Below the pieces are notes generated by a model that saw only the letters and a program-made list of their open reading frames with translations, had not been told where the DNA came from and made no database searches. The translations under genes were made by a program, and so were the position numbers. Shown here in pieces: positions 36,508 through 42,094 of a stretch of 64,000 bases of DNA (its first letter is position 1; every line of letters begins with the position of its first letter). Origin of the DNA: Halomonas sp. HL-93 (GTDB lineage Bacteria > Pseudomonadota > Gammaproteobacteria > Pseudomonadales > Halomonadaceae); contig NZ_LT593974.1 of the NCBI RefSeq assembly GCF_900086985.1, forward strand, positions 1,922,001-1,986,000. The letters are read 5' to 3'.

Positions 36508-36513
36508 TATAAT
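36508..36513 (+). promoter_or_regulatory. -10 element of the yhhQ promoter
   Basis: A perfect TATAAT lies 35 bases before the riboswitch-like structure; no good -35 box is seen 16-18 bp upstream (CTTTTA region). Confidence 0.4.
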
Positions 36514-36547
36514 GCGCCTCTCACTGCACCTAGGTGCGCAATGCGTT

Positions 36548-36582
36548 GAGGGTTCCCTAACCCCTCGTCAACACAAAAAAGG
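36548..36582 (+). promoter_or_regulatory. preQ1-I riboswitch candidate in the yhhQ leader
   Basis: Stem P1 is GAGGG (36548-36552) with CCCTC (36562-36566) around the loop TTCCCTAAC. An A-rich tail (36570-36580) leads to GG at 36581-36582. This layout lines up with the well-studied Thermoanaerobacter tengcongensis preQ1-I aptamer: the loop ends in UAAC, whose final C contacts preQ1, and the tail is A-rich and ends in AAGG. Loop cytosines 36555-36557 can pair with the tail GG to make the pseudoknot. That GG is also the ribosome binding site (AAGG, eight bases before the ATG), so ligand binding would shut off translation. The downstream gene is a queuosine-precursor transporter, a known class of preQ1 target. 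Confidence 0.72.
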
Positions 36583-36590
36583 CCCGCCGT

Positions 36591-37259
36591 ATGTTTGTTT
36601 TAAGCGACGCTCAGCACCGCCGTTGCCTCGCCGTGATGGTGGCGTTCCACATTGGTATTATCGCCGCCAGTAACTACCTCGTTCAGCTTCCGTTTACCCT
36701 GTTCGGCTTCCATACCACCTGGGGTGCTTTCAGCTTTCCATTCATTTTTTTGGCCACCGACTTGACCGTCCGACTGTTTGGCAAAGAGCCGGCTCGCGCT
36801 ATTGTACTGCGCGTGATGCTCCCTGCGCTGATCGTCTCGTATGTGGTATCGGTGGTCTTTCCCCAAGGACGTTTCGCGGGTATAGAAGCGTTGAGTGACT
36901 GGAACCTGTTTGTCGCCCGTATCGCGCTGGCGAGCTTTTTGGCTTACGTTATTGGCCAGTTGTTAGATGTGCAGGTGTTTGATCGTTTGCGGCAGTGGGT
37001 TTGGTGGGTCGCCCCGGTGTTTTCTACCGTACTGGGCAACTTGGCCGATACTTTTGCATTTTTCTCAGTCGCGTTTTACCAAAGCCCAGACACCTTCATG
37101 GCTACCCATTGGGTTGAAATTGCCGCTGTCGATTACGCCATTAAGCTTGCCATCAGCCTGCTATTTTTCCTGCCACTTTATGGCCTGTTGCTATCATGGT
37201 TGACGCGCCGCTTGGTGGTCTGGACCGACCAGGCAGATCTCGCACCGCGTACAGCCTGA
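36591..37259 (+). CDS. yhhQ: Queuosine precursor transporter YhhQ
   Basis: Inner-membrane importer of the 7-deazaguanine precursors preQ0 and preQ1 used to make queuosine in tRNA; 222 residues with about six membrane segments (COG1738/DUF165). Typical motifs are FPFIFLATDLTVRLFGKE, FLAYVIGQLLDVQVFD and the conserved TVLGNLADTFAFFSVAF. The leader carries a preQ1-I riboswitch candidate. It is followed after 27 bp by a YbfF-type hydrolase that may be co-transcribed. Confidence 0.93.
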   Translation: MFVLSDAQHRRCLAVMVAFHIGIIAASNYLVQLPFTLFGFHTTWGAFSFPFIFLATDLTVRLFGKEPARAIVLRVMLPALIVSYVVSVVFPQGRFAGIEALSDWNLFVARIALASFLAYVIGQLLDVQVFDRLRQWVWWVAPVFSTVLGNLADTFAFFSVAFYQSPDTFMATHWVEIAAVDYAIKLAISLLFFLPLYGLLLSWLTRRLVVWTDQADLAPRTA

Positions 37260-42003: not shown

Positions 42004-42094
42004 GGAGGGATGGCAGAGCGGTTGAATGCACCGGTCTTGAAAACCGGCAAAGGTGAATAGCCTTTCCAGGGTTCGAATCCCTGTCCCTCCGCCA
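42004..42094 (+). tRNA. tRNA-Ser (anticodon UGA)
   Basis: The acceptor stem is GGAGGGA with TCCCTCC; the anticodon stem CCGGT/ACCGG holds the loop CTTGAAA with anticodon TGA at 42038-42040. A long class II variable arm (AAAGGTGAATAGCCTTT) and the T loop GGTTCGAATCC follow. The gene ends with the discriminator G and an encoded CCA. It marks the left side of the accessory region. Confidence 0.97.

Follow-up and report, generated by a model that had tools for sequence, protein, structure and literature searches.

The window analysed here is the whole 64,000-nucleotide stretch of the Halomonas sp. HL-93 genome. On its forward strand, positions 36591..37259 hold yhhQ, encoding a 7-cyano-/7-aminomethyl-7-deazaguanine transporter of 222 aa that matches NCBIfam NF008406 with 337.2 bits (cut-off 252) and Pfam Vut_1 with 118.9 bits; the preliminary description of this DNA had named yhhQ as the regulated gene, and these scores bear it out. 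The 5' neighbour of yhhQ, on the same strand, encodes an acyl-CoA synthetase of the acetate/propionate ligase kind, and the 3' neighbour an alpha/beta hydrolase. The probable -10 element of the yhhQ transcript, TATAAT, would lie at 36508..36513 (+); TATAAT or TATACT occurs no more than 120 nt upstream in 66 of the 68 leaders examined, and a scan for paired hexamers detected no complete sigma-70 site. In the stretch from the -10 box to the aptamer, Halomonadaceae leaders (L001-L066) frequently have stem-loops, which differ in sequence, with a mean z of -1.81 and 34 values below -1 among the 61 leaders folded from these 68. In the window, the possible stem-loop at this place, TGCAC-CTAG-GTGCG at 36525..36538 (+), has a z of 0.35, which is not better than shuffled sequences. 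Further downstream, a tRNA gene at 42004-42091 is the sole Rfam match at gathering threshold in the window.

Directly before yhhQ, an aptamer of 35 bases can be read from the sequence at 36548-36582 (+). It finishes in the Shine-Dalgarno sequence that serves the gene, 8 bases away from the ATG at 36591; the end at 36590 given in the preliminary description lies too far downstream. The aptamer begins with the 5' strand of P1, GAGGG (36548..36552), continues with the pyrimidine-rich loop TTCCCTAAC (36553..36561), and completes P1 with CCCTC (36562..36566). The variable L3 linker GTCAACACA, at 36567..36575, has 9 nt and leaves no room for an inserted hairpin. It is followed by the poly-A and Shine-Dalgarno segment AAAAAGG (36576..36582), which is the same in all 23 leaders of our alignment A1 (described below) and whose last three bases, AGG (36580-36582), constitute the 3' strand of P2. 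Mapped on the numbering used in PMC10622847 for the E. coli riboswitch (Eco), the UU of the loop corresponds to U6 and U7, the antiSD bases are C36556, C36557 and U36558, and the specificity base C36561 corresponds to C14. The minimum-energy fold of the window leader, computed with a program that does not reach pseudoknots, is no better than that of shuffled sequences (z -0.04).

The reference for these parts is the type III preQ1-I riboswitch of E. coli, crystallised and assayed in 2023 (PDB 8FZA; PMC10622847). According to that report, the Eco 36-mer RNA binds preQ1 1:1 at 57.9 nM, favours preQ1 over preQ0 about 138-fold, and regulates yhhQ, with a 6.1-fold repression in a reporter (PMC10622847). 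The hallmarks given for it are a pyrimidine-rich loop, UU adjoining the 5' strand of P1 and AC preceding the 3' strand, followed by a variable linker, a poly-A of 4-5 A, and an AAGG that is at once P2 strand and Shine-Dalgarno; such type III elements are described as lying upstream of yhhQ and as nearly confined to Gammaproteobacteria (PMC10622847, PMC11625349). In the window, the loop at 36553-36561, UUCCCUAAC, has UU by the 5' strand of P1 and AC before its 3' strand; positions 36567-36582 contain a linker, an A-run and an AAGG serving as P2 and Shine-Dalgarno; P1 has five base pairs with compensatory changes among relatives; and the gene downstream is yhhQ.

The E. coli leader in our set (L081) has the published linker GGTTAATC and aligns with the window leader. 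Setting G36548 as Eco position 1, C36561 as 14 and G36582 as 30, we compared the positions to which PMC10622847 assigns a role in contacting ions or the ligand, in the floor of the pocket, in the ceiling or in P2. Identical in the window are G4, G5, U6, U7, C8, C9, C10, U11, A13, C14 and C15, as well as A26, A27, A28, G29 and G30. The two RNAs share the 5-bp P1, the 9-nt pyrimidine-rich loop, the poly-A, the AAGG and the gene yhhQ, and they differ in the sequence of P1 (GAGGG/CCCTC in the window, TTGGG/CCCAA in Eco), in the linker sequence and in loop position 12, which is A in the window and C in Eco. Because the architecture, the gene and the contact bases are those of a crystallised and reporter-tested riboswitch, type III identity is the best reading, and the window element is almost certainly a class I type III preQ1 riboswitch that controls translation initiation of yhhQ. 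On the same architecture and contact bases, the preliminary description was right about class, gene, pairing and logic when it proposed a preQ1-I riboswitch hiding the yhhQ ribosome binding site.

The subtype that it had assigned has to be replaced. The leader had been said to match the T. tengcongensis (Tte) type II aptamer almost base for base, a claim that is right for the length of P1, for the specificity C and for the A-rich tail. With type II the window element shares the H-type pseudoknot, the specificity C, an A-rich L3 and the tail GG near P2, and the AC before the 3' strand of P1 and the tail ending in AAGG would also be in keeping with a Tte-like type II preQ1-I riboswitch. However, the pyrimidine-rich loop at 36553-36561 lacks G altogether, and its first purine is A36559; the ceiling pair G11-C30 of Tte and its contacts through G8 and A10 can therefore not be made. 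The Tte loop is, in addition, one base longer than that of the window. A UU next to the first strand of P1 follows the type III pattern (PMC11625349), and more of the Shine-Dalgarno is described as paired in type III than in Tte type II (PMC10622847). Given the lack of loop purines before A36559 and the UU pattern, a type II assignment is extremely improbable, and type III takes its place. The window element also shares the UU adjoining the 5' strand of P1 and an A-rich L3 with the type I riboswitch Can; type I is described as having UC before the 3' strand of P1, an enlarged loop and a stack of two ligands, whereas the window has AC at that place and a 9-nt loop.

RF00522 (PreQ1), nominally the Rfam family of class I preQ1 riboswitches, had been proposed in the preliminary description as one check of the assignment. 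The model gives no preQ1 match for the window copy, either at the gathering threshold or with E up to 10, and matches no place in the genome of the window; in fact, no Rfam family reaches threshold for the window element. Across 14 control genomes, B. subtilis alone was matched, and the model (Rfam release 15) misses six type III loci, namely those of E. coli, Ferrimonas, Oceanospirillum and three others, so that the type III loci tried score nothing. Since the crystallised E. coli copy is missed as well, the absence of a match, although it is what the check returned, says nothing on type III, for which this test is invalid. Annotation that relies on the current Rfam PreQ1 model omits type III copies such as that of E. 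coli, and a simple 36-position covariance model recovers the type III element.

Two covariance models were used. R1 was built from alignment A1, which comprises 23 diverse leaders including the window copy (L082), and R2 is a control model of 16 leaders from outside the family of the window, the 7 Halomonadaceae leaders having been dropped; in the R2 alignment, the tail of L086 stands one column out of place. R1 scores the window element with 43.5 bits, a value inflated by the presence of the window copy among its training leaders, and the next place reaches 9.6 bits in the window and 15.8 in the genome. Under R2 the element obtains 26.3 bits, the next place having 9.3 in the window and 16.9 in the genome, and the genome search gives an E of 0.008, a clear but modest score. 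The element is thus first-ranked in the genome with R2 too, with a smaller margin than with R1. The lower R2 score leaves our confidence in the type III identity unchanged, since the base identity with Eco and the conservation in relatives are independent of that score.

The pairing was analysed in 137 loci with 104 distinct leaders, all of which fit the final pattern; 47 of the 137 were found with R1, which rewards P1 pairs, and the other 90 through the gene. The two outer positions of P1 are paired in 103 and 93 of the 104 distinct leaders, compared with shuffled means of 48.3 and 51.8 and maxima of 65 and 66. When only the gene-found set is considered (90 loci, 68 distinct leaders), the corresponding counts are 68 and 64 of 68, against shuffled means of 41.8 and 44.7 and maxima of 53 and 54; the leaders being related, the shuffles overstate the significance of these P1 counts. 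At the first outer position the pairs observed include A-T, T-A, C-G and T-G, and at the second G-C, C-G, T-A and A-T; the inner pairs are G-C, except in the related L087 and L088, whose GAG/CTC makes the middle inner pair A-T. In A1, 20 cells are changed on both sides, compared with 7.2 in shuffles, and 3 pairs show both-sided change, a number reached in 86 of 500 shuffles. The third and fourth outer positions are paired in 34 and 33 of the 104 leaders (shuffled means 28.1 and 39.1) and are thus little constrained or unconstrained, so that P1 has 5 bp, as published. P1 is supported by covariation.

The three P2 pairs are possible in 23 of 23 A1 leaders, and P2 shows no variation in that alignment. 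The sole P2 variant among the 137 leaders, L184, changes CCCT/AGG to CTCT/AGA with the pairs kept, and has an AGG after one further base beyond the AGA; it is the one leader that is informative on P2 covariation. The comparison of P1 and P2 among relatives, also suggested in the preliminary description, speaks for the riboswitch: P1 is maintained by covarying pairs, and P2 is maintained with hardly any variation. A conserved DNA operator, or a protein-binding RNA site of yhhQ with no metabolite sensor, would account for the nearly invariant core GGGTTCCCTNNCCCC and for the position of every strong match examined before yhhQ, but P1 covaries among several pair types, and the poly-A and AGG tail is kept while the linker that precedes it ranges from 2 to 37 nt. 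Moreover, the E. coli copy, as RNA alone, is reported to bind preQ1 (57.9 nM; PMC10622847). We give such a site hardly any credence beside a type III riboswitch.

In a search made with the protein only, the motif is present at 80 of 80 yhhQ loci, these being the best 80 of 574 and mostly from Halomonadaceae. In the phylum draw, R1 at an E of 1e-4 matched 50 of 398 genomes; 48 of the 50 leaders are outside the training set, and all the matches fall within the same class or nearer. In the class draw, R1 at an E of 0.01 or better matched 18 of 369 genomes (19 matches), and the strong matches, of 38.8 bits or more, come from 9 of the 369 genomes, with 8 of the 9 leaders in the training set. The 10 weak matches of the class draw (21-24 bits) were judged by eye to be chance, several of them being tRNA T-arms by a terminator; for one, L132, which precedes a very short reading frame, no explanation was found, and it was set aside as chance. 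At all 56 distinct strong R1 loci of both draws, yhhQ lies directly downstream.

The protein search of the class draw found a relative of YhhQ in 27 of the 369 genomes, of which 14 have a close orthologue (E of 1.7e-59 or better). The switch is present before 9 of these 14 and missing from 5, one of the latter in the family of the window, so the switch is not obligatory for yhhQ; a strong R1 match occurs in none of the 13 class-draw genomes with only a more distant relative. A YhhQ match was also found in 12 phage records, and Vibrio 2.275.O, Pantoea Vid5, Providencia PSTCR7 and PSTCR4 (L186-L189) carry yhhQ beside 7-deazaguanine genes. R1 found nothing before yhhQ in these four phages, those examined among the 12, its best score being 10.5 bits on the other strand. 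A pattern scan of IMG/VR gave 4 virus-borne matches, each of which falls inside a long reading frame, in the case of L110 on the opposite strand; all 4 were judged by eye to be chance.

If the window RNA works as its E. coli homologue, from which the ligand, the 1:1 binding and the direction of the switch would follow, the AAGG at 36579-36582 would be free when preQ1 is scarce, and yhhQ would be translated. When preQ1 is plentiful, one molecule would bind between P1, formed by 36548-36552 with 36562-36566, and P2, with the predicted pairs C36556-G36582, C36557-G36581 and U36558-A36580. The bound preQ1 would be read by C36561, U36553 and A36579, and the ligand-bound pseudoknot would lock up the Shine-Dalgarno, with less YhhQ being made. 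We infer from the E. coli homologue that the window switch represses yhhQ, and very likely it shuts off uptake of the imported compound, a building block for tRNA modification, once this is abundant. In E. coli, YhhQ is described as required for preQ0 transport (PMC5372724). Searches for QueC, QueF and TGT found proteins of the three families encoded in the genome, which therefore probably makes its own preQ1; uptake through YhhQ would then be an extra supply, worth shutting at high preQ1. The approximately 138-fold preference of the E. coli type III switch points to preQ1 as the signal. A genuine aptamer whose ligand has drifted, for example to the preQ0 carried by YhhQ, or whose switching was lost in this lineage, is unlikely. 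The A in place of C at loop position 12, where the phosphate contacts the ligand in Eco (PMC10622847), would be compatible with such a drift, but the other named bases are unchanged, and an A at that position is common, AAC being found in 29 of the 104 distinct leaders.

The type III riboswitch of the window is thus a genuine and well conserved member of a subtype already described and structurally solved, and it is new as an instance only. With it, a very small riboswitch of solved structure is extended to a halophile lineage.

Some relatives depart from the plain form that the window copy has. From loci L001-L108 we folded 16 distinct linkers, whose length is 20-39 nt when the two outer bases of P1 are included. 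Of the 16, 14 (L030-L033, L035, L038, L043-L045, L049, L051, L052, L054 and L062) form a stem at least as stable as -5 kcal/mol that stops 1-4 nt short of the poly-A, and the stem sequences differ between lineages. The z-scores of these long linkers are modest, with 12 of 16 at -1.18 or lower and the lowest at -2.31; among the 14 stem-forming linkers, L030 and L045 do not surpass shuffled sequences, and the long linkers of L064 and L075 have virtually no stem. The passages of PMC10622847 on linker and hairpin make no mention of such stems, and no paper on them was recognised by title or opening of the abstract, the 2014 description of type III being represented here by two later papers.

A second variation is found in 22 of the 137 loci, in which one extra base, mostly a fifth C, stands between the antiSD and the 3' strand of P1 (L068, L070, L072-L074, L076-L079, L090, L093, L094, L136-L142, L173, L183 and L184); alternatively, this base could be a mismatch or a bulge in P1. 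We tentatively suggest, as a possibility somewhat short of an even chance, that three unreported variants of the type III preQ1-I riboswitch may be represented: a stem-loop in L3 that shortens an over-long linker in some Halomonadaceae, a base that lengthens L2 in Vibrionaceae and others, and the P2 change of L184, which, with its nearby AGG, would partly uncouple the Shine-Dalgarno from the pseudoknot in at least this leader. The length of L3 in Eco was studied through short deletions and one redesigned linker (PMC10622847), and the leaders with linker hairpins provide a natural test of how this length sets affinity.
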